This document shows positions 20,403-50,649 of a DNA stretch of 64,000 bases, piece by piece. This DNA is from Rhodobacterales bacterium HKCCE2091 (GTDB lineage: Bacteria; Pseudomonadota; Alphaproteobacteria; Rhodobacterales; Rhodobacteraceae): assembly GCA_015689685.1 (NCBI GenBank), contig WVSL01000001.1, positions 409,298 to 473,297 of the forward strand, read 5' to 3'. A program made the position numbers and the translations under genes. The notes below the pieces were generated by a model. That model had not been told where the DNA came from, searched no databases, and saw nothing but the letters and a program-made list of their open reading frames with translations. Position 1 is the first letter of the stretch, and every line of letters starts with the position of its first letter.

Positions 20403-21179
20403 TCATCTCCCGGAAAAATCTGGAGGCCGCTTCTCGCGGAACGCCGCCTGGCCCTCACGGTAGTCCTCGCTGCCAAAGCACCGGTCAACGGCCTCTTGCG
20501 CCGTGCCGACTGGGACTTCCCTTTCCGTCGCAAGGCTTGCCAGTTTCGCAGCCTGTTGGGTCAACGGTGCGAGTCCGGAGATGTCCGTCGCGAGTTCAGC
20601 GACCCTGTCATGGAGGATTTCGGGGTCCAGAACTTCGTTCAACAGGCCCCAGCCCTGCGCTTCCTCCGCACCGACCTTTCGCGCGGTGTAGATCAGCTCG
20701 CGCAACCGGGCAGGACCGATCAGCCGTTGCAACCGGGTCACCTGCCCCGGCGCGTATCCGACACCGATCCGTGCCGCAGGCACGGCGAAGACCGAGTTTC
20801 TGGCCGCCAGGCGCAGATCGCAGGCCGCGGCGATCGAAAGTCCACCCCCGATACACGCGCCTCCGATGACCGCGATTGTCGGTTTCTCAAGCCGCGCAAG
20901 GGCGTCAAGCCCGTCCGAAACCGCCTTCCCGTACGCGTCCGCCGCCGCCTCGGTGTTCCGGTCCGCGCCGAACCCCGAGATGTCGGAGCCGGATACGAAG
21001 GCTCGATCACCCGCGCCGGTCACGACCAGGACTCTCACGTCCGGGTCCGAAGCGACCCGGCCCGCGACCACCGCGAGATCGCGCCACATCCCGAGCGTCA
21101 TCGCGTTCAGCCTGGAAGGGTTGTCGAACGTCAGGCGACCGATCCGACCATCCGCGGCATACTCCACACTTCCTGACAC
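20403..21179 (-). CDS. Enoyl-CoA hydratase/isomerase family protein
   Basis: A 258-aa crotonase-fold enzyme. The oxyanion-hole segments are GDRAFVSGSDISGF (about 60) and VIGGACIGGGLSIAAACDLRLA (about 98-118). The GVGYAPGQVTRLQRLIG region follows, but the two catalytic Glu positions of true hydratases are not clearly present (PAARIGVGYAPG), so isomerase, hydrolase or another CoA reaction is possible. The start is a GTG at 21179 (GAGGGG just upstream); a second GTG at 21164 is also possible and no ATG fits. It is divergent from the CoA-transferase across 133 bp, so both may be controlled together. Confidence 0.85.
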   Translation of the reverse strand: MSGSVEYAADGRIGRLTFDNPSRLNAMTLGMWRDLAVVAGRVASDPDVRVLVVTGAGDRAFVSGSDISGFGADRNTEAAADAYGKAVSDGLDALARLEKPTIAVIGGACIGGGLSIAAACDLRLAARNSVFAVPAARIGVGYAPGQVTRLQRLIGPARLRELIYTARKVGAEEAQGWGLLNEVLDPEILHDRVAELATDISGLAPLTQQAAKLASLATEREVPVGTAQEAVDRCFGSEDYREGQAAFREKRPPDFSGR

Positions 21180-21312
21180 GCTGCCCCTCCATCGGCCGCA
21201 ATTTCGGATGGAGCATAACGGCGATCCGATGGGGCGGGCATAGGAACGCCCGCCTAGACTATCGGGAATGGAGACGCGCCAGCCGCGACGGCACGGGAGG
21301 GAGGCTCCGGAG

Positions 21313-22539
21313 ATGGCAGCACCAACCCGGGGTTCGCGCCGCGGACCCTTGCAGCATCTGCGGGTGATCGACCTCAGCCGGGTCCGGTCCGGCCCGATGG
21401 CGACACGCCAACTCGCCGACTGGGGCGCGGACGTGATCCGCGTGGAATCGATCAACGACAAGACCGACGGCATGGCCGGTCGCCGCAACTCCACCGACTA
21501 CGAGAACACCCACCGCAACAAGCGGTCGCTGGCGCTGAACCTCAAGACGCCCGAGGGGCTGGAAATCCTGAAGTCGCTGGTGCGCGATGCCGACGTGCTG
21601 GTGGAGAACTTCCGGCCCGACGTGAAGGACCGGCTCGGCATCGGTTACGACACGCTCGCCGCGATCAACCCGAGGCTGGTCTATGCCAGCGTGTCGGGTT
21701 TCGGCCAGACCGGCCCCTACGCGAACCGCCCGGGGCTCGACCAGGTGATCCAGGGCATGTCCGGGCTGATGTCCGTCACCGGCGAGCCGGGTGGAACGCC
21801 CTACCGCGTCGGCCTGCCGATCGGCGACCTGACCGCGGGGCTCTTCACCGCCATCGCCATCTTCACAGCGCTCGAGGAGCGGCACGTCACCGGGCGGGGA
21901 CGTTGGGTCGAGGTGAACCTGTTGCAGGCGCTGGTGACGTTGATGGATTTCCAGGCCGCGCGCTGGCTCGTGGACGGGGAGGTCGCGGGGGCAACCGGCA
22001 ACCACCACCCCGTGTTCATTCCGACGGGCACCTTCGCCACGACAGACGGCCACATCAACGTCGCGGCCAGCGGCGGCGAGTTGTGGAAGAAACTCGCCCG
22101 CGTGATCGGACGGCCGGACCTGATCGAGGACGTGCGTTTCGTCACCGATGACCGCCGCAACGCCAACCGCGATGCGCTGAACGCCATCATCGCCGACCGG
22201 CTCGCGACCCGCAGCAGCGCCGACTGGATCGCCGCCTTCAACGAGGCCGGGGTGCCCTGCGGCGAGATTTACCGCATGGACCAGGTCTTCGCCGATCCGC
22301 AGGTGCAGCATCTCGGGATCGCCGAGCCGGTGACCCACGACATCCTCGGCCACGACATCCATCTCGTCGGGCGGCCGTTCCGCATCGACGGTGCCGATCT
22401 GTCGCCGTTCCGGCGCACCGCCATGTCGGGGGAGCACACCGACGCGGTGCTGCGGGGGCTTGGTTACGATGACGCCCGGATCGACGCGCTCAGGCAGGCC
22501 GGTGTGATCGGCGGTGATCCGGACAGGCAAGGGGACTGA
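21313..22539 (+). CDS. CoA transferase family III (CaiB/BaiF)
   Basis: A 408-aa family III CoA-transferase, which moves CoA between carboxylic acids via an enzyme-bound mixed anhydride. Visible blocks are VIDLSRVRSGPMATRQLADWGADVIRVE (N-terminal), NKRSLALNLKTPEG, LVENFRPDV, and YASVSGFGQTGPY. The catalytic Asp lies in GLPIGDLTAGL, as in formyl-CoA transferase. The ATG at 21313 follows a GGGAGGGAGG site by 7-8 nt; an earlier ATG at 21268 has no such site. It is the first gene of an operon with the ThDP enzyme 6 bp downstream. Substrate unknown; a di- or tricarboxylate fits the region. Confidence 0.9.
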   Translation: MAAPTRGSRRGPLQHLRVIDLSRVRSGPMATRQLADWGADVIRVESINDKTDGMAGRRNSTDYENTHRNKRSLALNLKTPEGLEILKSLVRDADVLVENFRPDVKDRLGIGYDTLAAINPRLVYASVSGFGQTGPYANRPGLDQVIQGMSGLMSVTGEPGGTPYRVGLPIGDLTAGLFTAIAIFTALEERHVTGRGRWVEVNLLQALVTLMDFQAARWLVDGEVAGATGNHHPVFIPTGTFATTDGHINVAASGGELWKKLARVIGRPDLIEDVRFVTDDRRNANRDALNAIIADRLATRSSADWIAAFNEAGVPCGEIYRMDQVFADPQVQHLGIAEPVTHDILGHDIHLVGRPFRIDGADLSPFRRTAMSGEHTDAVLRGLGYDDARIDALRQAGVIGGDPDRQGD

Positions 22540-22545
22540 CACGAA

Positions 22546-24201
22546 ATGACGACACGCATCTACGAGGCGCTGGCCGATGCCTTCGCCTCCGAGGGCACGG
22601 ACACGGTCTTCTGCCTGACGGGCGACGGCAACATGCACTGGGAGGCCGCGATCACCGACCGCCACGGCGTCCGCAGCATCCACGTGCGGCACGAACACAC
22701 CGCGCTCGCCATGGCGACGGCCTGGGCGCGGACCACGGGGCGGCCCGGCATCGCATCCGTCACCTGTGGGCCGGGGCTGACCCAGACCATGACCGCGCTC
22801 GCCACCGCTGCGCAGGCGCGCATTCCGCTGGTTGTGTTCGCAGGCGAGGATCCGATGCAGAACTCCTGGTACAACCAGCGGATCGAACAGGCGCCGCTGG
22901 TGACGGCGACGGGTGCCGCCTACATCGCCGCACGCCACCCGAACCGGATCGTCGATTGCACCCAGGAAGCCTTCCTGGTCGCGCGACAGGAACGCCGCCC
23001 GGTGGTGCTGGCGGTGCCGCTCGATCTTCAGAAAAAGAACGCTGAGGGGCCGGACTACGTGCCCTCGACCGCGCTCATGCCGAAGGCCCGCCCTGTCCTG
23101 CCCCACCCCGACGAGATCGCGATGATGCTCGACCGGATCGGAGCTGCACGGCGGATACTCGTCCTCGCCGGTCTCGGTGCCATCGAGAGCGGCGCGCGGG
23201 AGGCATGTATCGAGCTGGCCGAGCGGGTCGATGGCGGGCTGATGACCACCCTACCCGCACGCGGGTTCTTCACCGGCCATCCGCGCGACCTCGGCCTTTC
23301 CGGCGGCTACCTCCATGCCTCGGCGCGGGACACGATGCAGGCGACCGATCTCGTGATCGCCGTGGGGGCGAGCCTGTCGCGGTTCACGTCCGACCAGGGC
23401 AAGGTCTTCAAGCCTGTGCAGGTGATCCAGGTCGACCCCGCGCCGAGCCTGCCGAAGCACGGGCAGGTACCGGCGGCATGTCATGTCCTCGCCGATGGCC
23501 GCCTGACGCTCGAGGCGGTGAACGCGGAACTCGCGAAGGGCCAGACCAGGACCGCCCAGCCAGGATGGGGCATCGAAGACACCTCCCGCCGGGTCCACAG
23601 CGAGGATCCCGACCCGTTCGGTGACCGGGCCACCGACGCGCTCGACCCGCGCGACGTGGTTCGCGCCCTGTCCGACCGCTCCGACCCCACCTGGGCCCAT
23701 GTCAGCGGCAGCGGCCACTGCGCCTATTACGGTGCCCATCTCTATGGACGAAGCGCGCGCGACTTCCTGACGATCCGGGAATTCGGCGCCATCGGCAACG
23801 GGTTGTCCTACGCCATAGGGCGGTGCGTCGCGACACCGGACCAGCCGGTGATGCTGACCGAGGGCGACGGCGGGCTGATGATGCATATCCAGGAGTTGGA
23901 AACGGTGAAGCGCTGCGGGCTGAAACTCCTGATCTGCGCGCTGAACGACGGGGCCTACGGGTCCGAGGTTCACAAGCTGCGCGTCGACGGGGTCAGCGAC
24001 AAGGGCGCGATCTACGGGCGCGGCGATCTCGCGAGGGTGGCGCGCGGTTTCGGGCTGGAGGGGCACACCGTGACGGAGATCGACCAGATCCCGACGCTCG
24101 CGGAAGCCTTCGCAGCCAACCCGGTGCCGACGCTCTGGGACATCCGCATCTCCGACCAGGTGATGTCGCCGGCCATGCGCAAGATCGTCGGAAAGACCTG
24201 A
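22546..24201 (+). CDS. Thiamine diphosphate-dependent enzyme (acetolactate synthase/benzoylformate decarboxylase superfamily)
   Basis: A 551-aa three-domain ThDP enzyme. The cofactor-activating Glu is in RHEHTAL (Glu50). The middle domain has the LVIAVGASLSRFT segment, and the metal-ThDP motif runs from EGDGGLMM to LNDGAYGSE. FAD-site features of true acetohydroxyacid synthases are not obvious, so 2-oxoacid decarboxylation or carboligation is likely, with the actual substrate open. Its context, behind a CoA-transferase, recalls the formyl-CoA transferase/oxalyl-CoA decarboxylase pairing, but the two are not proven to match. Its stop lies 7 bp from the converging SDR gene. Confidence 0.85.
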   Translation: MTTRIYEALADAFASEGTDTVFCLTGDGNMHWEAAITDRHGVRSIHVRHEHTALAMATAWARTTGRPGIASVTCGPGLTQTMTALATAAQARIPLVVFAGEDPMQNSWYNQRIEQAPLVTATGAAYIAARHPNRIVDCTQEAFLVARQERRPVVLAVPLDLQKKNAEGPDYVPSTALMPKARPVLPHPDEIAMMLDRIGAARRILVLAGLGAIESGAREACIELAERVDGGLMTTLPARGFFTGHPRDLGLSGGYLHASARDTMQATDLVIAVGASLSRFTSDQGKVFKPVQVIQVDPAPSLPKHGQVPAACHVLADGRLTLEAVNAELAKGQTRTAQPGWGIEDTSRRVHSEDPDPFGDRATDALDPRDVVRALSDRSDPTWAHVSGSGHCAYYGAHLYGRSARDFLTIREFGAIGNGLSYAIGRCVATPDQPVMLTEGDGGLMMHIQELETVKRCGLKLLICALNDGAYGSEVHKLRVDGVSDKGAIYGRGDLARVARGFGLEGHTVTEIDQIPTLAEAFAANPVPTLWDIRISDQVMSPAMRKIVGKT

Positions 24202-24208
24202 GCGGCGG

Positions 24209-24937
24209 TCAGGTGGTGCCGCCGCCGTTGATCGCGATCATCTGGCCGGTGACGTAGCCGCCTTCGTCCGACACCAGCATTCCAGCGACGGCGGCGACCT
24301 CCTCGGGCGTGCCGCGTCGGTCCATTGGGATCAGCTTCGGGAACTTCGGCTTGTCCGGCGCAGGGTTCGGATCGGCGGGGCCGATGGGGCCGGGCGACAA
24401 CACGTTCGCCGTGATCCCCCGCGCGGCGAATTCGTGGCTGAGCGCCTTCGCCAGCCCCCATTGCGCGTGCTTGCCCGCGACCGTCGGCGCCATGTGCGCC
24501 CCCCGGATCGCGTGCATCCCCGTGAAGCCGATGATCCGGCCCCACCCGCGTTCCAGCATCCCCGGCACGAAGGCCTTGGCCAGCCAGAAGAGCTGGCTGG
24601 CGTTCAGGTCCATCACCCGCGCCCAGTCCTCGTCGCTGGTGTCGAGAAACCCCGCGTGGGGACGCGCGGCGGCGGAGGTCACCAGCACGTCGATGGTGCC
24701 GAAGCGATCGAGCGCCTGCGCGGCCAGGTCGCGGCAGACCGCGCGATCCCCCACGTCGCCCATCGCGATCAGCGTCTCGACCCCGAGCGCCGCGCACTCC
24801 GCCGCCACCGCCTGGCAGGCGGCGCGGTCGGATCGTCCGTTCAGGACCACGTCGATGCCGCGCCGCGCGAATTCGAGCGCGATGCCTCGGCCTATGTTCT
24901 TGCCCGCGCCGGTGATGAAGGCGGCATGGCGGATCAC
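24209..24937 (-). CDS. Short-chain dehydrogenase/reductase lacking the catalytic tyrosine
   Basis: A 242-aa classical SDR fold. The cofactor motif is TGAGKNIGRG (about 8-17), LNGRSDRAACQ follows, and the VTSAAA strand stands where NNAG usually lies. The active site is unusual: the position of Tyr in YxxxK is Thr (TVAGK), and the preceding Ser block reads GFTGMHAIRGAHM. Substrates or activity may be altered. The GTG at 24937 overlaps the stop of the upstream amidohydrolase (GTGA), so it is the last gene of a five-gene operon. The open frame continues upstream only antisense or out of context. Confidence 0.85.
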   Translation of the reverse strand: MIRHAAFITGAGKNIGRGIALEFARRGIDVVLNGRSDRAACQAVAAECAALGVETLIAMGDVGDRAVCRDLAAQALDRFGTIDVLVTSAAARPHAGFLDTSDEDWARVMDLNASQLFWLAKAFVPGMLERGWGRIIGFTGMHAIRGAHMAPTVAGKHAQWGLAKALSHEFAARGITANVLSPGPIGPADPNPAPDKPKFPKLIPMDRRGTPEEVAAVAGMLVSDEGGYVTGQMIAINGGGTT

Positions 24938-25812
24938 GACTGCACCGCCGATTTCGCCGCAAGCGCGGGATAGAGGATTTCCGAGGTGCCGGACAGGATC
25001 ATCGCCCGGTCCGCCGAGGTCAGCGACGACAGGCACTCCCGCGCACGGGCCACGATGTCCGACAGGGGCCCCTTGATGGACGGGTAGTTCGACCCGAATG
25101 CCACTCGGTCGGCCCCGAAGACCGAGACGAGCTTCGGAAAGAACGTCTCTGGCGTCGCGGCGCCCGAACTTGCGAGGTCGAAGGTGCGGGGCGTGGCCTT
25201 GAGGTAGATGTTCCCGTGATCGGCCAGGTCGAAAAGCGTCTTCGCGGCGGCATAGGGCGGGCCGTCGGTGATGTCTGCCCGCGCGAGGTGGTCCAGCGCG
25301 ATCCGCGTCTTCGGGAACTGCGCGGCGAGCCGCGCGACGATGGGAAAGGCGGGGGATCGGACCTGGAGACAGATCGGCAGCCCGGCGGCGCCGCAGAACT
25401 CCCAGACCGGGGCGGCGGCGGGGTCCTTCAGCACGTCGTAGCTGAAGGCGAGCTTGCTTCCGCCGGTGTAGATCCTGAGACCGCTGACGCCCCGCGCCAC
25501 CAGCCGCTCCACCGTCGCCACTGCATCCGGCGCCGTCACGTCGATGGTGGCGATGGCGGTGAAGCGGTCGGGCCGCGCGGCCACCGCGTCGAGGATGTAG
25601 GAGTAGTCATAGCCGTAGCAGGTCGACGACTGTACCAGCGCCGCGCAGGCGATCCCTGCGGCGTCCATCGCTTCGATCATGTCCTGCCAGGTGACGACGT
25701 GTTCCTTTGCCCAGTCCGACTGCTTGCCTCCGAGCGGTGAGCGCGGATAGCAGTCGTTGTCGCCCGAGATGATGTGCGGGTGGATGTCGTGGACGCGCTC
25801 CATCTCCGTCAC
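24934..25812 (-). CDS. Amidohydrolase-2 family protein (paralogue A)
   Basis: A 292-aa TIM-barrel hydrolase of the amidohydrolase-2 type (PF04909; ACMSD/LigJ relatives). The N-terminal metal motif is HDIHPHIIS. Other family signs are the tract SSTCYGYDYSY, the DHLARADITDGPPY strand with the conserved His, and GSNYPS. It shares the start HPH(I/V)IS...PLGG(K/R)QS with the proteins at 27728-28582 and 43940-44812. Start is a GTG overlapping the stop of the LigJ-like gene (GTGA). Likely C-C or C-O cleavage or hydration of a carboxylated substrate; the exact reaction is unknown. Confidence 0.85.
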   Translation of the reverse strand: MTEMERVHDIHPHIISGDNDCYPRSPLGGKQSDWAKEHVVTWQDMIEAMDAAGIACAALVQSSTCYGYDYSYILDAVAARPDRFTAIATIDVTAPDAVATVERLVARGVSGLRIYTGGSKLAFSYDVLKDPAAAPVWEFCGAAGLPICLQVRSPAFPIVARLAAQFPKTRIALDHLARADITDGPPYAAAKTLFDLADHGNIYLKATPRTFDLASSGAATPETFFPKLVSVFGADRVAFGSNYPSIKGPLSDIVARARECLSSLTSADRAMILSGTSEILYPALAAKSAVQS

Positions 25813-26828
25813 GCCGCCAGCCGGGCCGCGATACGCGGGTAGACCCGGCGCGCGTTGCCTTCGTAGATCAGCGCGCGGTCCTCGGCGCTGAGACCTTCCA
25901 GCCCCTCAATGTAGCGGCGAGTATCGTCGAAGTAATGCCCGGTCTCGGGGTCGATGCTGCGCACCGCGCCGATCATCTCCGACCCGAACAGGATGTTCTT
26001 CGCCGGGATCACGTTGGCCAGCAGGTCCACCCCCGGTTGGTGATAGACGCAGGTGTCGAAGAACACGTTGTCGAGCAGCAATTCGTTCAGCGGCGGGCGT
26101 TTCAGGTCCTGCGCGATGCCCCGGTAACGGCCCCAGTGATAGGGCACGGCCCCGCCGCCGTGCGGGATCACGAAGCGGAGCGTCGGGAAGTCGTTGAACA
26201 GGTCCGACAGGATAAGCTGCATGAAGGCCGAGGTGTCGCCGTTCAGGTAATGCGCCCCGGTGCCGTGGAAGTTCGGATTGCACGACGCGCTGACGTGGAT
26301 CATCGCCGGCACGTCCAGCTCCACCAATTTCTCGTAGAGCGGATACCACCAGCGGTCGGTCAGCGGCGGATCGGTCCAGTAGCCGCCAGACGGGTCGGGG
26401 TTCAGGTTGCAGCCGACGAAGCCAAGCTCCTCGATGCAGCGGGTCAGTTCGGGGATGCAGTTCGCGGGCTCGACACCGGGCGACTGCGGAAGCTGACAGA
26501 CCGGCACGAAGCGGTCGGGATACAGCGCCGCCACCCGCGCGATCAGGTCGTTGCAGATGCGCGACCAGTGGATCGACAGAGCCTCGTTGCCCAGGTGATG
26601 ACCCATGAGTCCCGCGATGGGCGAGAACAGCGTCGCGTCGATGCCGCGTTCGTCCATCAGCTTCAACTGGCCACCCTCGATGGAGGCCCTGATCTCGTCG
26701 TCGGTGATCTCGGGCGCGGGATCGAAGCCCGAGGTCTTGCCGGCGTCGAACGCCGCGACCTGTTCCTTGCGATAGCTTCGGAGTTGCGTCGGTACTGTGG
26801 TGAAGTGGCCGTGGCAGTCGATGATCAT
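25809..26828 (-). CDS. Amidohydrolase related to 4-oxalomesaconate hydratase (LigJ-like)
   Basis: A 339-aa PF04909 protein whose start MIIDCHGHFTT, length and IPHGGGAVPYHWGRYRG block match the LigJ branch. LigJ hydrates 4-oxalomesaconate in the protocatechuate 4,5-cleavage pathway. Metal ligands are His6 and His8, plus the GSEMIGA segment near 280. There is no ring-cleaving dioxygenase in the window, so the LigJ reaction itself is uncertain; a related unsaturated tricarboxylate is plausible. It sits third in the operon, 12 bp behind the decarboxylase-like gene, and its stop overlaps the next start. Confidence 0.82.
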   Translation of the reverse strand: MIIDCHGHFTTVPTQLRSYRKEQVAAFDAGKTSGFDPAPEITDDEIRASIEGGQLKLMDERGIDATLFSPIAGLMGHHLGNEALSIHWSRICNDLIARVAALYPDRFVPVCQLPQSPGVEPANCIPELTRCIEELGFVGCNLNPDPSGGYWTDPPLTDRWWYPLYEKLVELDVPAMIHVSASCNPNFHGTGAHYLNGDTSAFMQLILSDLFNDFPTLRFVIPHGGGAVPYHWGRYRGIAQDLKRPPLNELLLDNVFFDTCVYHQPGVDLLANVIPAKNILFGSEMIGAVRSIDPETGHYFDDTRRYIEGLEGLSAEDRALIYEGNARRVYPRIAARLAA

Positions 26829-26840
26829 CTGTGTCTCCGG

Positions 26841-27725
26841 TCAGGCGAGCGCGATGGTGACGTCGTCGAAAAGCTCCTCGACATCCATCCGGCGCGAAAT
26901 CAGCCCTTGCTGGTGGGAATAGGTGATGGCGAGGTCCAACCCGGCCTTCAGCGCGTCGAAGCCGTAGGGGCGCGGATCGGGGTCGCCGGTCAGCCCGGAC
27001 TTCGCCTTGCTCTCCTTCAGCACGCGGTAGAGTTCCGCCACCACGTCCGGACGCTCCTTCGGCAGGTCCGACCGCACGACGGCCATGTGGTTGACCGAGA
27101 TCGCGCCGGTTTCGGCATACCATTCCGCCGCCGCCGCCTTCGGATCGGGGATCACGGTCCTGAGCCGCGGGTCATCCGGCATGTTGGAGCCGAGCATCGC
27201 CGCGTCGAGCTCCCCGTCCAGAAGCATGTCCTTCAGCTTCTTGCCCTCGGGCGCGATCACGACATTCGGCGGATTCCGGTATTCCGCGACATGGGCATCC
27301 TCGAAGGTCAGCCATTCGATTTCCGACAGGTCGACGCCGAACTGGTTCTCGAGGATGCCGCGCACCCACATGCCCGTCGTCTGGGTATAGGCCCGGACGC
27401 CGATCCGCTTGCCGGCGAGATCCTTCGGCCCGAGCGCACCGCGTTCGATGTTGTAAGCGATGCAATGGTGCTGGAACCGGCCCGAGATGGTCGCCGGCAA
27501 GAGCGTCAGCGGTTTGCCGTGGTCCTTCGCCTGGAGAAACGTCGCGATGGCCAGTTCGCCGGTGTCGAAGGCGGCATCGCGGACCATCGGCTTGAACGCC
27601 TTGTTCGACACCTCGTAGGGTGCGAAATCGAACTCGATCAGGGGCGACGAGACCTCTCCGGTTCGGATCGCGTGGGTGACGGGGTAGTCCGCGAGGAGCG
27701 TGTGGAGCTTCATGGGCTCTGGCAT
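26841..27725 (-). CDS. 4,5-dihydroxyphthalate decarboxylase-like protein (paralogue A)
   Basis: A 294-aa protein of the NMT1/periplasmic-binding fold group to which Pht5-type 4,5-dihydroxyphthalate decarboxylase belongs. It has no signal peptide, so it should be cytosolic and enzymatic rather than a transport receptor. Key shared blocks are SGRFQHHCIAY, GVRAYTQTTGMWVRGIL and AITYSHQQGLISRRM. ATG 27725 lies 2 bp after the amidohydrolase stop; a second ATG at 27713 is possible. It pairs with an amidohydrolase gene here, as it does at 43.1-44.8 kb. Confidence 0.78.
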   Translation of the reverse strand: MPEPMKLHTLLADYPVTHAIRTGEVSSPLIEFDFAPYEVSNKAFKPMVRDAAFDTGELAIATFLQAKDHGKPLTLLPATISGRFQHHCIAYNIERGALGPKDLAGKRIGVRAYTQTTGMWVRGILENQFGVDLSEIEWLTFEDAHVAEYRNPPNVVIAPEGKKLKDMLLDGELDAAMLGSNMPDDPRLRTVIPDPKAAAAEWYAETGAISVNHMAVVRSDLPKERPDVVAELYRVLKESKAKSGLTGDPDPRPYGFDALKAGLDLAITYSHQQGLISRRMDVEELFDDVTIALA

Positions 27726-27727
27726 CG

Positions 27728-29819: not shown

Positions 29820-29828
29820 GGAGATCCG

Positions 29829-30686: not shown

Positions 30687-30693
30687 GCCCCGG

Positions 30694-40758: not shown

Positions 40759-40798
40759 CCGCGAACACGACAACCGCTTTCATCACGGAGGAGATATC

Positions 40799-43080: not shown

Positions 43081-43943
43081 CCGAGCAACTCCATGCCCCG
43101 CCCGAACACGTTCTCGAACGACAGGCGGCGCGTGGTCAGACCCTGCCGGTGCACCGATCCAAGCAGGGTCTCGACCGAGCGCCGCATCGCGTCGGCCCCG
43201 ATCGGCAGCATGTCCGGACCGTCCTGCCTGAGCGCGGCCTTCGCCTCCGCGAAACCCTCGACCACTCTCCGCACGAGGCCCGGATCGCGCTCCGCGAGGT
43301 CGGGCGAGACGGCAACGACGTGGTTGATCTGGACGACGCCGGTGCGCGCAAGGTTCTCCCGCGCCGCGGCGTCAGGGTCGGGGATCACCGGTGCGATCCA
43401 GGGGTCATCGGGCATGTCGATCCCGAAGATCGCCGCGTCGACGAGGCCATCCCGCAACAGGTCGTAGGGCTTCGTCCCCGCAGGGTCGCGCACCACGTTC
43501 GCGGGTTCCGGCGCGCCCGCGACATGGGACGCCTCCTCCGTCACCCATTCGACGCTGCGCGGGTCGATGCCGTATTCGGTGTCGAGGATCGTGCGGACCC
43601 AGGCCCCCGTGGTCTGGCTGTAGGCCCTGACCGCGATGCGGTGGCCCGGCAGGTCGGCCGTGGTCAGGGCCGTGCGGTCGCGGTTCTGGACGAGGCAGCG
43701 GTGCTGAAACCGCGACGAGATCGTGACCGGCAGCGGGATCACCGGGCGCCCGGCCTCCGCCGCCTGGATCGCGGCTACGATGGCCAGTTCGCTGATATCG
43801 AAGGCGGTGTCCTCGACCATCGGGCGGAAGGCGCGGTGGATCGGCACGACCTCCTTCACGTCGAGGCCGAGCGCCTTCGCGGGACCGGCAAGAAAGGCCG
43901 CAGCGATTGGGGTGTCGCCAAGGACCAGCGTGGGCGCGCTCAC
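43077..43943 (-). CDS. 4,5-dihydroxyphthalate decarboxylase-like protein (paralogue C)
   Basis: A 288-aa cytosolic member of the same family as 26841-27725 and 28851-29819. It has SSRFQHRCLVQN, VRAYSQTTGAWVRTIL and SVHRQGLTTRRL, and no signal peptide. Start is a GTG at 43943 in a GTGA overlap with the amidohydrolase stop. With that gene it repeats the pairing seen at 26.8-28.6 kb. Its stop overlaps that of the plus-strand LysR gene by a CTAG. Confidence 0.76.
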   Translation of the reverse strand: MSAPTLVLGDTPIAAAFLAGPAKALGLDVKEVVPIHRAFRPMVEDTAFDISELAIVAAIQAAEAGRPVIPLPVTISSRFQHRCLVQNRDRTALTTADLPGHRIAVRAYSQTTGAWVRTILDTEYGIDPRSVEWVTEEASHVAGAPEPANVVRDPAGTKPYDLLRDGLVDAAIFGIDMPDDPWIAPVIPDPDAAARENLARTGVVQINHVVAVSPDLAERDPGLVRRVVEGFAEAKAALRQDGPDMLPIGADAMRRSVETLLGSVHRQGLTTRRLSFENVFGRGMELLG

Positions 43944-44812
43944 GCGACGCCCTCTGGCGCTGCACCGGCCAGCGCCGGATAGAGCGTGGCCGCCGTTCCG
44001 GAGAGGATCATCCGCTGGTCCTCCGGCGCGAGGGTCGAGACCGCTTCCCTCGCGCGGGCGACAAGCTTCGGCATCGGACGCTCGGCGGCGGGGAAGTTCG
44101 ACCCCCAGGCCACGCGGGATGCGCCGAATGTCGCGACCAGGTGCGCCATGAAGTCCGCTAGGGTCGAGGCCCCGGTTTCAGCCCGGTCGATGTTGCGGAC
44201 AGTCATCTTCACATGGACGCCGGGATACTCCGCCAGCGCCCAGAGCCCCGCCGCCTCGGCGTAGGGTGGGCCGTCCTCCAGCACCGGGCGGGCGAGGTGG
44301 TCGATCACCACGCGGGCCTCGGGAAAGCGGTCCAGCAGGTCGCGCAGGAGCGGGATACCCGGTGGGCGCATCTGCACGCAGATCGGCAGGCCGATTGCGC
44401 TGGCATGGGCCCAGGCAGCGTGGGAGCGAGGGTCGTTCAGCCAGTCCGCCTGTCCCTCCACGGTGCTGCCGGCCGTGAAGAGGCGAAGTCCCGTCAGCCC
44501 CTTCGCCCGCCAGTGCTCGATCCGCTCCACCGCGTCCGGGGCCAGCACGTCAACCGAGAACACGCCGGTCAGCCGGTCGGGATGCGCGGCGACCGCCTCG
44601 GCGAGATAGGTATTGTCGTGGCCATAGGCGGTCGAAGCCTGCACCACCGCCGCCTTCGCGATCCCCGCCGCATCCATCTCCGCGATCAGTCCCTCGTGGG
44701 AGAGAGGGTGTTTCGCCGACCACGACGACTGCCTGCCGCCCAGCGGCGACAGGGGATAGCGGTCGGTATCAGGGGAGATGACGTGCGGATGAATATCTAC
44801 GATCTGTTCCAT
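43940..44812 (-). CDS. Amidohydrolase-2 family protein (paralogue C)
   Basis: A 290-aa PF04909 hydrolase with metal motif VDIHPHVIS, ASTAYGHDNTYL, DHLARPVLEDGPPY and GSNFPAAE, parallel to paralogues A and B. It is the first gene of a two-gene operon with paralogue C of the decarboxylase-like family. The three amidohydrolases share the opening PLGG(K/R)QS segment, an uncommon feature, so they likely act on one compound class. Its promoter is in the gap to the rhomboid gene. Confidence 0.85.
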   Translation of the reverse strand: MEQIVDIHPHVISPDTDRYPLSPLGGRQSSWSAKHPLSHEGLIAEMDAAGIAKAAVVQASTAYGHDNTYLAEAVAAHPDRLTGVFSVDVLAPDAVERIEHWRAKGLTGLRLFTAGSTVEGQADWLNDPRSHAAWAHASAIGLPICVQMRPPGIPLLRDLLDRFPEARVVIDHLARPVLEDGPPYAEAAGLWALAEYPGVHVKMTVRNIDRAETGASTLADFMAHLVATFGASRVAWGSNFPAAERPMPKLVARAREAVSTLAPEDQRMILSGTAATLYPALAGAAPEGVA

Positions 44813-45037
44813 TCGATCTCGGGTATCTCGTGACCTGTTTCTGAAGATATCCGAAGTCTCTCACCTCGGCTGCCGCATGGACCAATCCGATCCTTGGACG
44901 GGGTTATGCAAAAGCTGGGCGTCTGCCCTGATCACCTGGTCACCAGAAAGATGCTCCTCCAGCGGAGCAAAGGTCGGTGCGATGCTGGAAGTGCGAAAGC
45001 CGTTGAAGGCGCTAACGAGACGTCTACGCTCCCCAAC

Positions 45038-45637
45038 ATGATCAGGCAGGATCACAAGCGAGCGTTCGTTCGGCGTATCACCGTGCTTGCGGCCTTCGTC
45101 GCGGTGCTCTGGATAGTCCAGGTCTTCAACTGGATCACCGGCTACGCCCTCAATCCGGCCTTCGGTCTCATCCCCCGGCACGTCAGCGGATTGGACGGCG
45201 TCGTCTTCATGCCGCTTCTGCACGGAAGCTTCGCGCACTTGGTGGCAAACACGCCGCCGCTTTTCGTCATGGGTGGGTTGCTGGTGGCCACTGCCACGCG
45301 GGCGCTGGTGGCCGTGAATGCCGTCGTGATCGGTCTCGGCGGCGGTCTCGTCTGGCTGTTCGGGGGCTTCGCGATCCACATCGGCGCGTCAGGGCTGGTC
45401 TTCGGCTGGTTCGGCTTCCTGGTGGCGCGCGGCTTAGTGGATCGCTCGCCCGTCACCCTGCTTGCGGCGCTCCTCGTGGGTTTCCTGTACGGGTCCATCC
45501 TTTGGGGCGTTCTGCCGGGTCGAACGGGTGTTTCCTGGGAGGCCCACCTGTTCGGCGCCATCGCGGGCGTCGCCGCCGCATTTCTTGTGCGGACACAAGT
45601 CCACGCTCCACGCCTCGGAGGCGTGGACCAGGAGTGA
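45038..45637 (+). CDS. Rhomboid-family intramembrane serine protease
   Basis: A 199-aa polytopic protein from the ATG at 45038. Rhomboid features are HGSFAHLVANTPP (His and Asn near residues 62-71), the catalytic Ser in GASGLVFGW (Ser118) and the catalytic His in EAHLFGA (His170), with five to six hydrophobic segments. It would cut transmembrane substrates. Upstream in-frame starts exist at 44906 (ATG) and 44894 (TTG), which would add a polar N-terminus lacking similarity; no strong ribosome site discriminates. This gene and the helicase sit between the catabolic genes and tcuAB and are somewhat less GC-rich. Confidence 0.85.
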   Translation: MIRQDHKRAFVRRITVLAAFVAVLWIVQVFNWITGYALNPAFGLIPRHVSGLDGVVFMPLLHGSFAHLVANTPPLFVMGGLLVATATRALVAVNAVVIGLGGGLVWLFGGFAIHIGASGLVFGWFGFLVARGLVDRSPVTLLAALLVGFLYGSILWGVLPGRTGVSWEAHLFGAIAGVAAAFLVRTQVHAPRLGGVDQE

Positions 45638-45831
45638 GGGAGGGGCTTTCACCCAGCGCCGATGTTATTGCGCTCGCTATCGGGCATTACCGGGCGTCCA
45701 TGCCGTGCCGCGAACCTGTACAAGCATCCGCACTTGACTTAACTGCAGCCTGGCTGACCGCGTTGGCTGGCGCGAAACCTACCCGCTTGCCGACCCGGTT
45801 GGCCAAAGCAAATCCCGAGAGTGACGTTCTC

Positions 45832-47754
45832 ATGCACCCTGCACTTCGCGCGGCCCTCGATGACCGTGGATACGCCACGCTGACACCGGTTCAGACATCG
45901 GTGCTGGACCCCGCGCTGATAGGTCGTGACATGCTGGTTTCCGCGCAGACCGGCTCGGGCAAGACGCTTGGTTTCGGCCTTGCCATCGCGCCCACGATCC
46001 TGGGTGACCAGCAGGCTTTCGAGCCGGGCGCCACGCCGCTTGCGATCATCATCGCTCCGACGCGGGAGCTGGCCCTGCAGGTCAAACAAGAACTCGGGTG
46101 GCTCTATGCCAAGGCAGGGGCGATCCTGGCCTCCTGCGTGGGCGGCATGGACATGCGCGACGAACGCCGTGCGCTGGAACGCGGGGCGCACATCGTTGCG
46201 GCCACGCCGGGGCGGCTGCGCGACCACATCACCCGGGGCTCCATCGACCTCTCCGCGGTTCGCGCCGTTGTCCTCGACGAGGCCGACGAAATGCTCGACC
46301 TCGGGTTTCGCGAGGAGCTCGAGTTCATCCTGAGCGAACTCCCCCGCGAACGGCAGACCCTGTTGTTCTCGGCCACCGTTCCGCCAGCCATCGCCGCACT
46401 GGCGAAGGGCTACCAGGACGACGCGGAACGCATCGTCGCGAAGTCCGAAACCCCGCAGCATGACGACATCGAGTACCGCGCGATGATGGTGGCCGAACGG
46501 GATATCGACAACGCGGTCATCAACACTCTGCGCTATCACGAAGCACCCAACGCGCTGGTCTTTGCCAACACGCGCGCGATGGTCAACCGGTTGGCGGCAA
46601 GGCTTTCGAACCGCGGGTTCAACGCGGTGGCACTTTCTGGCGAGCTGTCGCAGTCCGAACGCACCCACGCATTGCAGGCCATGCGGGACGGACGCGCGCA
46701 GGTCTGCGTCGCGACCGACGTGGCGGCGCGCGGCATCGACCTGCCCAGGCTCGATCTCGTCGTGCATGCCGAGCTGCCCTCCAACCAGGAAACCCTGCTG
46801 CACCGCTCCGGACGCACGGGCCGGGCCGGGCGCAAGGGCGTGAGCGCGCTGGTCGTCACGCCGCGCACGCGCAAGAAGGCCGAGCGCCTGCTGGGCTGGG
46901 CCAAGGTCAGGGCCGAGTGGGGCAGCGCTCCGTCGGCCGCAGAGGTCCGCGCGATGGACGAGGAGCGGCTGTTCTCAGACCCGGCGTGGCAGGAGCCGCC
47001 GACCGAGGAGGAGCAGGAAAGCGCGAAGCGGCTTCTCGATGCCTTTTCGCCCGAGCAGATCGCAGCCGGTTACCTGCGCCTTCTGCATACGCTGCGCACC
47101 CCTCCGGAAGAACTGGTCGAGCCGGGCACGAAGCCGGAACCCGTGCGGGATTTCGGCCCCGCGACGTGGTTTGCCGTCTCGGTCGGTCGCGACGCGGGCG
47201 CAGAGCCGCGCCGCCTGTTGCCGATGCTGTGCAAGGCGGGCGGCCTGACGAAAGACGACATCGGTGCGATCCGGGTGCAGAAGGACCGGAGTTTCTTCCA
47301 GATCCGCAACGGGGCCGTCGCGGGTTTCCTGGCGAACTTGGGCGAGAGCATGGAGCTGGAAAAGGGCGCGCAGCTCACTCAACTCGCGTCGCCGCCCGAC
47401 CTCGCGGCCAAGGGGCCGGGGCCCAACAAAGACAACGCCGAGCGCAAGACCGCCGGCGCAAAACCGCATCGCCCCAAGGCGCCCATGCGGGCCGGGCAGG
47501 GGACTGCTCCGGCGACGAAGTCCGATCGAAAGCGCGAGTATCGGAAAAGCAACGGCCACGAGGAAGAGGTCGACCGCGCGCCCGTCGAGTCCGACACCCC
47601 CGCCAGAACGAAAAGCCGCAAACCCAAGGGTCCGCCACCGCCCAAGGGCAAACCGGGCAGCAAGAAGAACCGCGCACGCGCTGCAGCAGCCGCGTCAGGC
47701 AAGGGTGCAGGAAAGTTTCGGAAGAAGTCTGGCAGCTCCAAACGGCAGCCCTGA
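45832..47754 (+). CDS. DEAD-box RNA helicase with DbpA-type RNA-binding domain
   Basis: A 640-aa helicase. The ATP motif is AQTGSGKT (38-45), then PTRELALQV, TPGRL, DEAD at 149-152, SAT at 180-182, and the C-domain ARGIDLP and HRSGRTGRAGR. A DbpA-like RNA-binding module lies at about 445-510 (RRLLPMLCKAGGLTKDDIGAIRV). A basic tail rich in Lys, Pro and Ala follows. It probably acts in ribosome assembly or cold-stress RNA unwinding (DeaD/CsdA group). The ATG at 45832 follows GAGAG; the frame is open upstream to 45502 without domain support. The 194-bp gap before it contains TTGACT at 45734-45739. Confidence 0.9.
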   Translation: MHPALRAALDDRGYATLTPVQTSVLDPALIGRDMLVSAQTGSGKTLGFGLAIAPTILGDQQAFEPGATPLAIIIAPTRELALQVKQELGWLYAKAGAILASCVGGMDMRDERRALERGAHIVAATPGRLRDHITRGSIDLSAVRAVVLDEADEMLDLGFREELEFILSELPRERQTLLFSATVPPAIAALAKGYQDDAERIVAKSETPQHDDIEYRAMMVAERDIDNAVINTLRYHEAPNALVFANTRAMVNRLAARLSNRGFNAVALSGELSQSERTHALQAMRDGRAQVCVATDVAARGIDLPRLDLVVHAELPSNQETLLHRSGRTGRAGRKGVSALVVTPRTRKKAERLLGWAKVRAEWGSAPSAAEVRAMDEERLFSDPAWQEPPTEEEQESAKRLLDAFSPEQIAAGYLRLLHTLRTPPEELVEPGTKPEPVRDFGPATWFAVSVGRDAGAEPRRLLPMLCKAGGLTKDDIGAIRVQKDRSFFQIRNGAVAGFLANLGESMELEKGAQLTQLASPPDLAAKGPGPNKDNAERKTAGAKPHRPKAPMRAGQGTAPATKSDRKREYRKSNGHEEEVDRAPVESDTPARTKSRKPKGPPPPKGKPGSKKNRARAAAAASGKGAGKFRKKSGSSKRQP

Positions 47755-48215
47755 GAGCCGGTACGCGGCGGAACGTGGAACTCGAGTGATCGTTTCCCGG
47801 TCCTGATCGCGGCGCTCTCATCCAGAGACGGAACTCAGCAGTTCCGACGTTCGCAGGATGCGCGGCTGCCGGACCCCTCCGACCACGTGATCCACCCTTT
47901 TGGCACATCGTTGTGACCGCAACGAACGACGGCCCTCTCCCATCCGCGCCGTGTCATTTCGCACACGGGTTGCACCAACCTCCCCTGCCCAAGACAGCGA
48001 CTCTATGCGTGGGCGAGGGAAATCGATGGGTCACGCCGGGGCGTAGCTCTTACACGGGTCGTGAGTGCGGCTGCACACGCTTGTGTTCAGCCGGTTCAGG
48101 AACGGGGACCGTCCATGGTCGAAGAAGGATCGCGGCGGTCCGAGACTGGTCTTGGGAAGCATATGAGCGCCTGCATCAACCAGCTCCGCCGCGCGGCAGA
48201 GGCAGGGGTCGCGCC
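47755..48215. other. 461-bp gap between helicase and tcuA
   Basis: No convincing gene. A 6-bp hairpin GGAACT/AGTTCC (47830-47845) lies after the helicase. A short ORF (48115-48219, 34 codons, starting MVEEGSRRSETG) ends in a GTGA overlap with the tcuA start and has GGGGACC before it; it may be a coupling leader or chance. The base composition is less regular than in coding DNA. Confidence 0.4.
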
Positions 48216-49598
48216 GTGACCGAGGACTGGGACGTGATCGTGATCGGCGGCGGCAATGCCGCGCTCTGTGCCGCGATCGAGGCCGCGGAGTCCGGCGCCC
48301 GCGTGCTGATCCTCGAATCCGCGCCGAAGGTCTACCGTGGCGGAAACTCCCGCCACACGCGCAACTTCCGCTGCATGCACGACGGTCCGTTGTCGGTCCT
48401 GACCGACTCCTATGGCGAGGATGAGTACTTCGACGACCTGTTGCGGGTGACGAAGGGCGAGACCGACGAGACCCTCGCCCGCCTCGTCATCCGCTCGTCG
48501 GAGGACTGCCTGCCGTGGATGGAGGCGCATGGCGTGAGGTTCCAGCCCTCGCTGTCCGGCACCCTGTCGCTCGGGCGGACCAACGCCTTTTTCCTGGGCG
48601 GCGGCAAGGCGCTGGTCAATGCCTACTACGCGACCGCCGAGGATCTCGGCATCGCGGTCCGCTATGACACCGAGGTCACCCACGTGACCATCGAGGGCGA
48701 CCGTTTCACCGGCGTCCGCGTGAGAGGTCCCGACGGAGTGGCGGACATCGCCGGCCGTGCTGCCGTGATTGCCGCGGGCGGGTTCCAGGGCGACATCGAC
48801 TGGCTCGCCGACGCCTGGGGGCCCGCCGCGCGGAACTTCCTGATCCGGGGCACGCCCTACAACCGCGGGGTCGTCCTGCGCGACATGCTCGACCAGGGTG
48901 CAATCTCGGTCGGCGACCCGACCCAATGCCACGCCGTCGCCATCGACGGCCGCGCGTCGAAGTTCGACGGTGGCATCGTCACCCGGCTCGACTGCGTGCC
49001 GTTCTCGGTCGTGGTGAACAAGGACGGCCAGCGTTTCTACGACGAAGGCGAAGACGTCTGGCCGAAACGTTACGCCATCTGGGGTCGGCTCGTCGCAGCG
49101 CAGCCCGGCCAGGTCGCTTACGCGATCATCGACAGCCGCAGTCTCGACCTGTTCATGCCTTCGGTCTTTCCGCCGGAGAATGCCGACACGCTGGAAGGGC
49201 TGGCGACGAAATTCGGCCTGCCGCCCGAGGCGGTTCGAGACACGATCGACCGATTCAACGCCGCCTGCCGGGACGGGCCGTTCCACCCGACCGATCTCGA
49301 CGGGCTAACAACGCAAGGGATCGCACCGGCCAAGACCAACTGGGCGCGGCCGATCACGGAGCCGCCGTTCTACGGCTACTCGCTCCGGACCGGCGTGACC
49401 TTCACCTATCTCGGCCTCAAGGTCGACAAGTCCGCGCGGGTGAGCGGGCCGAAGGGGCGCTACGACAACATCTGGGCCGCGGGCGAGACGATGGCGGGGT
49501 CGATCCTCGGCCAGGGCTATCTCGCCGGGTTCGGCATGACCATCGGCACGGTCTTCGGCCGCATCGCGGGACAGGAGGCCGCCGCCCATGTTCGATGA
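48216..49598 (+). CDS. tcuA: FAD-dependent tricarballylate dehydrogenase
   Basis: A 460-aa flavoprotein of the fumarate-reductase/succinate-dehydrogenase flavin group. It has the dinucleotide motif VIGGGNAALCAAIEAAESGA (near 8-27), RGGNSRHTRNFRC, the ribityl-side NTRV-type AAGETMAGSILGQGYLAG at the C-terminus, and the capping-domain RxxxD region. TcuA oxidises tricarballylate to cis-aconitate with TcuB passing electrons on. The GTG at 48216 has AGGGG upstream; the longer frame to 47913 has no conserved sequence. It overlaps tcuB by eleven bases, and no tcuC or tcuR lies next to it. Confidence 0.88.
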   Translation: MTEDWDVIVIGGGNAALCAAIEAAESGARVLILESAPKVYRGGNSRHTRNFRCMHDGPLSVLTDSYGEDEYFDDLLRVTKGETDETLARLVIRSSEDCLPWMEAHGVRFQPSLSGTLSLGRTNAFFLGGGKALVNAYYATAEDLGIAVRYDTEVTHVTIEGDRFTGVRVRGPDGVADIAGRAAVIAAGGFQGDIDWLADAWGPAARNFLIRGTPYNRGVVLRDMLDQGAISVGDPTQCHAVAIDGRASKFDGGIVTRLDCVPFSVVVNKDGQRFYDEGEDVWPKRYAIWGRLVAAQPGQVAYAIIDSRSLDLFMPSVFPPENADTLEGLATKFGLPPEAVRDTIDRFNAACRDGPFHPTDLDGLTTQGIAPAKTNWARPITEPPFYGYSLRTGVTFTYLGLKVDKSARVSGPKGRYDNIWAAGETMAGSILGQGYLAGFGMTIGTVFGRIAGQEAAAHVR

Positions 49599-50649
49599 GA
49601 CCATTGCCGAAGCCCGCCGCCAGGTGGAGATCTGCAACGCCTGCCGCTACTGCGAGGGCTATTGCGACGTGTTTCCCGCCCTCATGCGGCTCCGGGACCA
49701 CGACGACGGCGATATCGTTCAGCTCGCCAACCTCTGTCACAACTGCCGCGGCTGCTACTACGCCTGCCAGTACGTCCCGCCCCACGAGTTCGCCATCAAC
49801 CTGCCCGCCGTGCTGGCCGAGGTCCGCGTCGAAAGCTGGGAACGCCATGCCTGGCCCCGCCGTTTCGCGCGCCTGTTCCAGCGGAACGGCGTGGCGGTGG
49901 CGGGGCTGCTGATCGTCGCGATCGCGCTCCTGCTCTTGATGGCACAGGCGGTCCCGTCCGCGTCGGGCGAAGACTTCTACGCGGTCCTGTCCCACGGGAC
50001 GATGGTCGCGCTCTTCCTGCCCGCGTTCGTGCTGCCGCTTGTGTCGGTCGCAGTGAGCCTGCGGCGCTACTGGGCGGAAATCGGCGGCGGGCCGCTTCGG
50101 CCGACCGACGTCCTGCGGGCAGCATCTGACTCCATGCGGCTCCGCAACCTGTCAGGCGGCCAGGGCCAGGGGTGCAATTTCGAGGCAGAAGACCGGTTCT
50201 CGAACCGCCGCAGACGGTTCCACCAGGCGATGCTCTGGGGTTTCCTGCTCTGCTTCGCCTCCACCGCGTCGGGAACCGTGCTGCACTACGGTTTCGGACT
50301 GGAGGCGCCCTACGGCTTCTGGAGCCTCCCGAAACTCTTGGGCGTGCCCGGGGGTGTTCTCCTCGTGATCGGCTGCTCCGGCCTTGCCTGGTTGAAGACG
50401 CAGGCGGATGCGTCGCTCGGGGCAGTTTTCGCCTGGGGCGGAGAAATGGCCTTCGTCCTGCTGCTCGGGCTCACCGGCCTGACCGGCCTCGCCCTCTACG
50501 CGAGCGCCTCCACCACCGCACTGCCCGTTTTGCTCGCGATCCACCTCGGCACCGTGCTCGCCTTCTTCCTCCTCCTGCCGTTCAGCAAGATGACGCACGC
50601 ATTCTACCGCCTCGCCGCGTTGACGGCCGACGCATCGGCGCGGCGCTAG
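49588..50649 (+). CDS. tcuB: Tricarballylate utilization Fe-S/membrane protein (TcuB/CitB)
   Basis: A 353-aa protein with an N-terminal double-cluster ferredoxin part (CNACRYCEGYC near 16-26 and CHNCRGCYYAC near 50-60), followed by six hydrophobic helices with His residues placed as for heme b (HGTM, HQAMLWG, LHYG, IHLGT, KMTHAFYR). It should reoxidise TcuA-FADH2 and pass electrons to the quinone pool. The start lies inside tcuA, so the two are coupled. Downstream is the integrase relic. Confidence 0.88.
   Translation: MFDETIAEARRQVEICNACRYCEGYCDVFPALMRLRDHDDGDIVQLANLCHNCRGCYYACQYVPPHEFAINLPAVLAEVRVESWERHAWPRRFARLFQRNGVAVAGLLIVAIALLLLMAQAVPSASGEDFYAVLSHGTMVALFLPAFVLPLVSVAVSLRRYWAEIGGGPLRPTDVLRAASDSMRLRNLSGGQGQGCNFEAEDRFSNRRRRFHQAMLWGFLLCFASTASGTVLHYGFGLEAPYGFWSLPKLLGVPGGVLLVIGCSGLAWLKTQADASLGAVFAWGGEMAFVLLLGLTGLTGLALYASASTTALPVLLAIHLGTVLAFFLLLPFSKMTHAFYRLAALTADASARR

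Follow-up and report, generated by a model that had tools for sequence, protein, structure and literature searches.

We describe here a window of 64,000 nucleotides from contig WVSL01000001.1 of Rhodobacterales bacterium HKCCE2091 and, within it, the region from 20,403 to 50,649, in which genes probably linked to the catabolism of polycarboxylic acids surround a homologue of the hydratase LigJ. The source genome has a size of 4.44 Mb. Genes were called with a codon-usage model, and the open reading frames between 18.9 and 64 kb of the window were scanned against Pfam and NCBIfam (Table 1). An earlier note on this DNA had listed the genes of the region, and the scans recover every gene it named at about the position given. 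A five-gene operon (24209-28582) has the order LigI-like protein a, Pht5-like protein a, LigJ, LigI-like protein b and a short-chain dehydrogenase/reductase (SDR), all on one strand and with junctions that overlap or are separated by no more than 12 bases. The operon proposed in the earlier note is thus real, and the SDR gene, which the note had not named, is its fifth member; nor had the note named the two LysR, MFS, rhomboid and DbpA genes in or beside the region. Pht5-like protein b and an HpcH/HpaI aldolase are encoded divergently from it, and another pair of LigI-like and Pht5-like genes, the third, is found at 43077-44812. Compared with the first LigI-like protein, the other two have identities of 56 and 49%; the corresponding values for the Pht5-like proteins are 41 and 43%. 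We show that the region is a mosaic and not one pathway, with a core at 24.2-30.7 and 43.1-44.8 kb. Judged from its sequence, this core appears to be a transporter-fed version of a conserved operon that combines Pht5-like b, LigJ, a LigI-like protein, the HpcH/HpaI aldolase and Pht5-like a.

The idea that LigJ chemistry is central to the region is supported in part by comparison with solved proteins. The best match of the window LigJ in the PDB is the 4-oxalomesaconate (OMA) hydratase 6dxq (507.7 bits), and it is 63% identical to the characterized LigJ of SYK-6, which hydrates 2-keto-4-carboxy-3-hexenedioate (KCH). In an alignment of 31 rows (29 of 64 recovered relatives together with the LigJ proteins of the window and of SYK-6), H6, H8, H178, H223 and E284 are invariant in all rows. 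According to the PDB titles, 6dxs is LigJ E284Q with KCH and 6dxq is LigJ with 4-carboxy-4-hydroxy-2-oxoadipate (CHA). The LigJ-like gene of the earlier note is confirmed by this identity and by the invariant E284. PMC12314914 assigns the neighboring steps, with LigU/GalD as OMA tautomerase, LigJ/GalB as KCH hydratase and LigK/GalC as CHA aldolase.

The LigI-like proteins differ from LigI at the position of its catalytic residue. A profile of 33 members, made from the three window proteins and 30 of 93 recovered relatives, matches hydrolases of 2-pyrone-4,6-dicarboxylate (PDC). The AlphaFold2 model of LigI-like protein a (pLDDT 94.2) finds its best folds in 4i6k, 2ffi and LigI 4d8l with TM scores of 0.73-0.77, placing it in the amidohydrolase fold of the LigI group. 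The column of Asp248, which we take to be the catalytic residue of LigI, is Asn in 33/33 members; D248N and D248A are named as LigI mutants in PDB titles. Among the other compared LigI residues, which presumably contact PDC, Arg124 and His180 are kept in 33/33 and Ser77 in 31/33 members, Tyr156 is Gln in 33/33, Arg130 is not kept, and Arg217 stands one column off a nearly invariant Arg of the LigI-like proteins. It seems plausible that these proteins have a carboxylate-binding pocket without a hydrolytic base and, because Asn at the Asp248 position removes this base, would catalyze a reaction other than PDC hydrolysis. The same substitution disfavors their assignment as ordinary PDC lactonases.

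The Pht5-like proteins have the fold of solute-binding proteins and are predicted to be decarboxylase-like enzymes. Pht5-like protein a matches the 4,5-dihydroxyphthalate decarboxylase 9jp7 with E 6.6e-25 as a single sequence and E 2.4e-40 as a profile, and its model (pLDDT 94.7) fits 9jp7 with a TM score of 0.90 (E 7.0e-25, about 24% identity). Further matches with lower scores are TauA, enzymes titled 'biosynthetic pathway', Thi5 and MqnD, and periplasmic binding proteins reach a TM score of about 0.64 or less. No signal-like stretch is present in 39/39 aligned Pht5-like rows, with script-chosen starts and a maximal 10-residue hydropathy of at most 1.81, while the two TctC proteins of the window have signal-like N-termini of 2.28-2.33 by the same measure. 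To our knowledge, the LigI-like branch and its Pht5-fold partner are two protein families without a tested reaction.

Conservation of this gene set was analyzed in the named loci of the best 80 of 264 confirmed LigI-like relatives, with flanks of up to 10 kb per side. LigJ was counted at more than 45% identity; locus ends cut some operons (e.g. L049, L055, L057), so that counted absences may be too high. LigJ and Pht5-like b occur together in 61/80 loci, and these 61 include HpcH in 59 and Pht5-like a in 58 cases. A frequent order is Pht5-like b, LigJ, LigI-like, a major facilitator superfamily (MFS) gene, LigB-type dioxygenase, HpcH, thiamine diphosphate (ThDP) enzyme and Pht5-like a. The LigI-like gene follows LigJ within 400 bp in 55 loci. 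Pht5-like a follows the LigI-like gene within 200 bp in 17 loci, 11 of which show no LigJ (some of these loci are short); a dicarboxylate symporter family gene is found in 3 of the 11. In the acidobacterial loci L037, L058 and L077 such a LigI-like/Pht5-like a pair stands without LigJ, and the gene that comes next belongs to the sodium:dicarboxylate symporter family. The nearest named locus, from a Roseicyclus metagenome-assembled genome (MAG; L006), has a LigI-like protein with 88% and a LigJ with 92-93% identity. As controls, the rhomboid and DbpA genes of the window were found in 0/80 loci. CoA-transferase, enoyl-CoA hydratase, TcuA and TcuB likewise occur in 0/80, MmgE/PrpD protein 1 in 5/80 and protein 2 in 4/80. 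This was the neighborhood comparison that the earlier note had named as a check: the core is co-conserved, but CoA-transferase and hydratase are not, and we do not count them as part of the core. That the region holds no complete known pathway, as the note had stated, is true within the window; the gene set is, however, not unique.

Hosts of related operons are alpha-, beta- and gammaproteobacteria and acidobacteria. Annotated plasmid copies bear generic gene names: amidohydrolase, aldolase, acetolactate synthase, ABC transporter substrate-binding protein and protocatechuate 3,4-dioxygenase. The distribution is patchy. Among 101 genomes, a Pht5-like b match above 400 bits is found only in the genome itself and in G043; any match at E 0.001 occurs in 17/101, the next best with 248 bits. 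At E 1e-90 the protein is found in 4/385 members of the class, the source genome included. The remaining members are G252, with a dioxygenase-type operon, and G200 and G303, whose examined stretches show Pht5-like b and a but no LigJ. Some genes match in two pieces (Pht5-like b and TctAB in L044, HpcH in L172), perhaps due to frameshifts or sequencing errors. No paper on the LigJ operon was among the matches listed in the open-access literature, and an earlier description elsewhere is possible.

Table 1. Genes of the region, with positions in the window and the basis of each assignment.
Feature	Position	Strand	Basis
Enoyl-CoA hydratase (crotonase)	20403..21140, start approximate	-	Pfam ECH_1; NCBIfam generic hydratases below cut-off
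CoA-transferase family III	21268..22539	+	PF02515 379 bits; NCBIfam equivalogs all far below cut-off
ThDP enzyme, acetolactate synthase-like	22546..24201	+	Pfam TPP domains
SDR oxidoreductase, fifth operon gene	24209..24937	-	Pfam/NCBIfam; start overlaps preceding stop
LigI-like protein b, Asp248-to-Asn type	24934..25812	-	PF04909; alignments
LigJ, KCH (4-oxalomesaconate) hydratase homologue	25809..26828	-	PDB 6dxq 507.7 bits, 63% identity
Pht5-like protein a, solute-binding-protein fold, predicted decarboxylase-like enzyme	26841..27725	-	PDB 9jp7; model
LigI-like protein a, first gene of five-gene operon	27728..28582	-	PF04909; AlphaFold2 model
Pht5-like protein b, divergent from operon	28848..29819	+	Pfam Phosphonate-bd/NMT1 on long frame; alignments
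HpcH/HpaI class II aldolase	29829..30686	+	PF03328; GarL/HpaI families, all below cut-off; PDB
LysR-type regulator 1	30694..31953	-	Pfam
TTT (tripartite tricarboxylate transporter) permease, TctA-TctB fusion	32011..34065	-	PF01970 421 bits, PF07331
MmgE/PrpD protein 1	34121..35554	-	Pfam
MmgE/PrpD protein 2	35871..37220	+	Pfam
TctC periplasmic receptor 1, signal-like N-terminus	37300..38334	-	PF03401; N-terminus
Second TTT system, TctA, TctB, TctC	38711..41755	+	Pfam
LysR-type regulator 2	41836..43080	+	Pfam
Pht5-like protein c	43077..43943	-	alignments
LigI-like protein c	43940..44812	-	PF04909; alignment
Rhomboid protease and DbpA-type helicase, between TcuAB and rest of region	44894..47754		scans
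TcuA, FAD tricarballylate-type dehydrogenase	47913..49598, long frame; domain from ~48213	+	PRK08274, TIGR02485
TcuB, 4Fe-4S partner	49588..50649	+	TIGR02484 passed, PRK15033 missed

The hydratase of the window is a crotonase with generic NCBIfam matches below cut-off; the known itaconyl-CoA hydratase of Pseudomonas has another fold. The HpcH/HpaI protein matches aldolases of the GarL/HpaI/YfaU type in NCBIfam and the PDB, all NCBIfam scores being below cut-off; no CoA-lyase model is among these matches, so that the protein is not of the citramalyl-CoA lyase type by this comparison. MmgE/PrpD protein 1 matches structures of Irg1/cis-aconitate decarboxylase (E 7.2e-12 to 1.5e-9), PrpD (2.1e-11), IDS-epimerase (5.4e-8) and 2-methylcitrate dehydratase (1.7e-6). 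Because the MmgE/PrpD family acts on citrate-like acids, the protein would fit as an isomerase or dehydratase of the same acids. An MFS gene adjoins the region, and a serC leader (RF00517) scores above the gathering threshold at 18766-18817 on the minus strand.

TcuA lies well above both of its cut-offs (PRK08274 674 bits against 369; TIGR02485 598.5 against 372.55), and TcuB passes TIGR02484 (351 bits, cut-off 246.6) and falls below PRK15033 (373.5, cut-off 524). Downstream follow MarR and B12 uptake genes. The latter form an operon (genes 51712-58826, with a cobalamin riboswitch at 51605-51798 on the plus strand) that encodes a B12-receptor-like TonB-dependent protein, a BtuFCD-like ABC importer and ExbB/ExbD/TonB-like proteins. 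The riboswitch prompted us to consider TcuA as CobZ of B12 synthesis, which we do not favor, the neighbors being uptake genes; an Rfam match at gathering score was found in 0/8 TcuA stretches scanned, which also weighs against CobZ. TcuA is above cut-off in 19/101 relatives (the source genome included) and in each of the five alphaproteobacterial genomes whose locus includes MmgE/PrpD (G101, G102, G103, G104, G106), not in G043. The earlier note had linked TcuAB to the other genes, and this holds for individual genomes. In G106 one strand carries Pht5-like b, LigI-like, Pht5-like a, an ABC ATPase, an ABC permease, LigJ, HpcH, GntR, TcuA and TcuB, and in G103 a stretch of 2-4 kb, which includes a LysR gene, separates TcuAB from genes for PIG-L, LigK and OMA tautomerase. 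Across the 80 loci the link is not found. Thus, the TcuAB-LigJ link is real in a few lineages and absent in most. Elsewhere TcuAB has other company: 26 neighborhoods with TcuA above cut-off (own excluded, several ended by contig ends) hold a TTT permease or receptor in 14 cases and a PrpF-type isomerase in 7, and a ThDP enzyme 46-53% identical to that of the window is near TcuAB in 5/26. Six relatives (L167, L168, L178, L179, L181, L183) combine TcuAB, TTT genes and a PrpF-type isomerase (48-49% identical to the OMA tautomerase on contig C41 of the source genome), twice with a ThDP enzyme. This set is a recurrent tricarboxylate module.

A ring-cleaving dioxygenase is missing from the region, as the earlier note had said: the LigB and glyoxalase families have no match in the whole window, and other dioxygenase families none in the general scans of the reading frames from 18.9 to 64 kb. 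The only LigB-family match in the genome is a short protein on contig C10, presumably YgiD-like, and no orthologue of the operon dioxygenase. The note had further suggested that upstream genes might lie elsewhere, and this is possible, since a second, more classical set lies on contig C41 (L095:7901-11578, C41 ~264.9-268.6 kb). It encodes an OMA tautomerase (498.7 bits, cut-off 440), which is the only PrpF-family match of the genome, a LigK-type CHA aldolase (353.7 bits, cut-off 304.5), a glyoxalase-type extradiol dioxygenase that is catechol 2,3-dioxygenase-like and below cut-off (294.4 against 320.2 bits), a PIG-L protein and a LysR regulator 34-35% identical to those of the window. PIG-L is the family of the GalB hydratase. 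OMA tautomerase (LigU/GalD) and CHA aldolase (LigK/GalC) are absent from the window cluster, and both are present on C41. The two LysR proteins of the window (30694-31953, 41836-43080) have 414-419 residues, two helix-turn-helix stretches in Pfam and a long gap before the substrate domain, and are possibly tandem-HTH regulators; that of C41 (L095:12550-13689) is similar.

Taken together, we propose, with a probability of about 0.4, that the core imports a tri- or polycarboxylic (keto) acid and breaks it down to pyruvate and oxaloacetate by way of 4-oxalomesaconate-type intermediates, with no opening of an aromatic ring by the core itself. The TTT systems would import the acid. LigI-like and Pht5-like proteins, taking the place of the tautomerase in the cluster, may convert it, by rearrangement or decarboxylation, to KCH, which LigJ would hydrate as its substrate, and the HpcH/HpaI aldolase might then cleave CHA. 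TcuAB, with the second TTT system and perhaps the ThDP enzyme, could serve as a second entrance by desaturating a saturated tricarboxylate. The hydration by LigJ and the uptake by TTT are the firmest of these steps, the LigI-like/Pht5-like conversion and the TcuAB entrance the weakest. We infer the substrate, the LigI-like and Pht5-like reactions and the specificities of HpcH and the transporters. A more far-reaching version is doubtful: bacteria would live on acids that other organisms had produced by ring cleavage or left behind, through an entrance to the 4-oxalomesaconate/CHA pathway free of ring cleavage, in which TTT systems import polycarboxylic acids, TcuAB desaturates the saturated ones to the LigJ substrate, and isomerization or decarboxylation by the Asn-type LigI branch together with a Pht5-fold enzyme of the cytosol replaces LigU.

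Among the 61 operons (10-kb flanks), 35 have a LigB-type dioxygenase without TctAB-type TTT, 17 show the reverse, 8 have neither and 1 has both. TctAB-type TTT is thus found in 18/61, and also in G043 and on a plasmid of Paracoccus denitrificans (strain HAMBI_2443 has a TTT-type cluster on its plasmid). The operon dioxygenase resembles dioxygenases of known structure only weakly (gallate dioxygenase E 7.3e-6, protocatechuate 4,5-dioxygenase E 2.2e-5), and one source names several of its relatives 3-O-methylgallate 3,4-dioxygenase. An orthologous dioxygenase (at least 60% identity) was not found in 10/18 TTT-type genomes, which have a match of 41% or weaker or none; the genomes searched are drafts and MAGs of unstated completeness. 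In the L042 genome the dioxygenase stands 0.5 kb past the locus end. Some dioxygenase-type operons (L070, L082, L088, L089) lie near DUF1302, DUF1329 and YCF48-like genes, some also near MMPL genes, which suggests a system that takes up or exports the substrate across the outer membrane.

Several observations weigh against the proposal. A LigB-type dioxygenase lies within the flanks of 36/61 operons, and 8/18 TTT-type genomes carry the dioxygenase (68-70% identity), all with Burkholderiales loci. The dioxygenase and TTT types need 3 changes on a tree of 64 LigJ rows, and a test of dioxygenase against TTT on 3 independent pairs is not significant (L047 was counted as TTT in the tree, its LigB gene being in a second cluster at the locus edge, and the pair test used loci of at least 20 kb). 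On plasmid p2 of Paracoccus methylovorus (L087) the five core genes are accompanied by genes for an LLM-class flavin oxidoreductase, flavin reductase, ThDP enzyme and alpha/beta hydrolases, and neither a TTT nor a LigB-type gene was found in the 25.6 kb of this locus, which would fit a route started by an oxygenase; this operon possibly has a different substrate range. TcuA is above cut-off in 8/19 cluster genomes and below in 11/19, TcuAB is missing from all LigI-seeded loci, and LigJ occurs in only 1/26 TcuAB loci. Finally, of 21 cluster genomes (own included), 19 have a CHA aldolase and 11 an OMA tautomerase above cut-off. Since most of the hosts checked thus encode a CHA aldolase outside the operon, the substrate of HpcH may be a different one and the operon does not have to cover the pathway by itself; replacement of an absent LigK cannot be the whole reason for the presence of HpcH. 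With 8 dioxygenase-bearing TTT-type genomes and few independent switches, we dropped a strict alternation of TTT and dioxygenase. What stands is that the operon can exist without an orthologous dioxygenase in the available genome sequence, and that TTT and dioxygenase are not alternatives.

Other explanations have to be weighed against this proposal. In an aromatic route the C41 extradiol dioxygenase would make 4-oxalomesaconate-type acids, which the window LigJ and HpcH help to degrade, while the TTT systems import an aromatic polycarboxylate. The tautomerase, LigK-type aldolase, PIG-L protein and window-like LysR next to that dioxygenase speak for it, as do the LigB-type genes near related operons and the flavin oxidoreductase adjoining the operon in Paracoccus methylovorus. 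However, C41 with its own PIG-L looks complete without the window, its dioxygenase is catechol 2,3-dioxygenase-like and below cut-off, and no aromatic hydroxylase is among the scanned reading frames. The C41-type genes hence cut both ways, offering upstream genes for this route and yet leaving HpcH as no mere LigK substitute, and we regard the route as possible but rather unlikely. Unlikely, too, is an island of separate modules brought together by chance, namely a pathway of LigJ, LigI-like and Pht5-like proteins, a module for tricarboxylates with TcuAB, and one with CoA-transferase and hydratase. The rhomboid and DbpA genes do separate TcuAB from the rest, the CoA genes and TcuAB are never near the core in the 80 loci, and TcuAB usually keeps the other company described above. 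Against chance stand the position of TcuAB directly behind the LigJ operon in G106 and near the OMA tautomerase set in G103, and TcuA in five of five alphaproteobacterial MmgE/PrpD-locus hosts compared with 19/101 relatives.

Far less probable is the itaconate-like CoA route of the earlier note, in which TcuAB oxidizes tricarballylate to cis-aconitate, an MmgE/PrpD enzyme forms an itaconate-like product, and CoA-transferase, hydratase and lyase cleave it. The TcuA scores and the Irg1 match of MmgE/PrpD protein 1 agree with it, but PrpD matches about as well (2-methylcitrate dehydratase more weakly), HpcH resembles GarL/HpaI/YfaU aldolases, the CoA-transferase equivalogs are far below cut-off, the CoA genes are absent from the conserved loci, and LigJ, LigI-like and Pht5-like proteins are left unexplained. 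Hardly credible is a reading of the Pht5-like proteins as solute-binding proteins of an ABC importer instead of enzymes. Database records often name them so, and the LigJ operon of G106 includes genes for an ABC ATPase and an ABC permease between Pht5-like a and LigJ (L164:11423-13194). Against this count the missing hydrophobic signal segment, the much closer fit to the decarboxylase than to periplasmic binding proteins, and the scanned neighbors of the window copies, among which no ABC transporter gene is found.

The proposed import and degradation without ring opening raises the question whether the lower pathway of lignin acids can be entered through imported polycarboxylates without a dioxygenase. 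The answer matters for how lignin-derived acids are cycled and for the production or loss of the polymer precursor PDC. Compared with the lower pathway of protocatechuate 4,5-cleavage and gallate degradation (LigI/LigU/LigJ/LigK; GalD/GalB/GalC), the window shares a close LigJ homologue, and the logic of hydration followed by aldol cleavage would match. In contrast, its cluster has no dioxygenase, OMA tautomerase or LigK-type aldolase, its LigI-like proteins lack the catalytic Asp, and an HpcH/HpaI aldolase, Pht5-like proteins and TTT genes are present instead. LigI itself (4d8l, 4di9, 4dia) is alike in fold, Arg124, His180 and mostly Ser77, and unlike in Asp248, Tyr156 and Arg130; this LigI branch naturally carries the substitution of the crystallized D248N mutant and is paired with a Pht5-fold protein. 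With Pht5 (9jp7) the Pht5-like proteins share the fold and the absence of a signal peptide, but up to three copies occur here, two of them paired with LigI-like proteins. The Pseudomonas itaconate operon also has a CoA-transferase, a hydratase and a PF03328 protein, yet the PF03328 protein of the window is nearest to GarL/HpaI aldolases, and the CoA genes do not accompany it in the conserved loci. From tricarballylate utilization by TcuAB, finally, the window has proteins that reach the TcuA models and one of two TcuB models, and here they adjoin TTT and LigJ-type genes.

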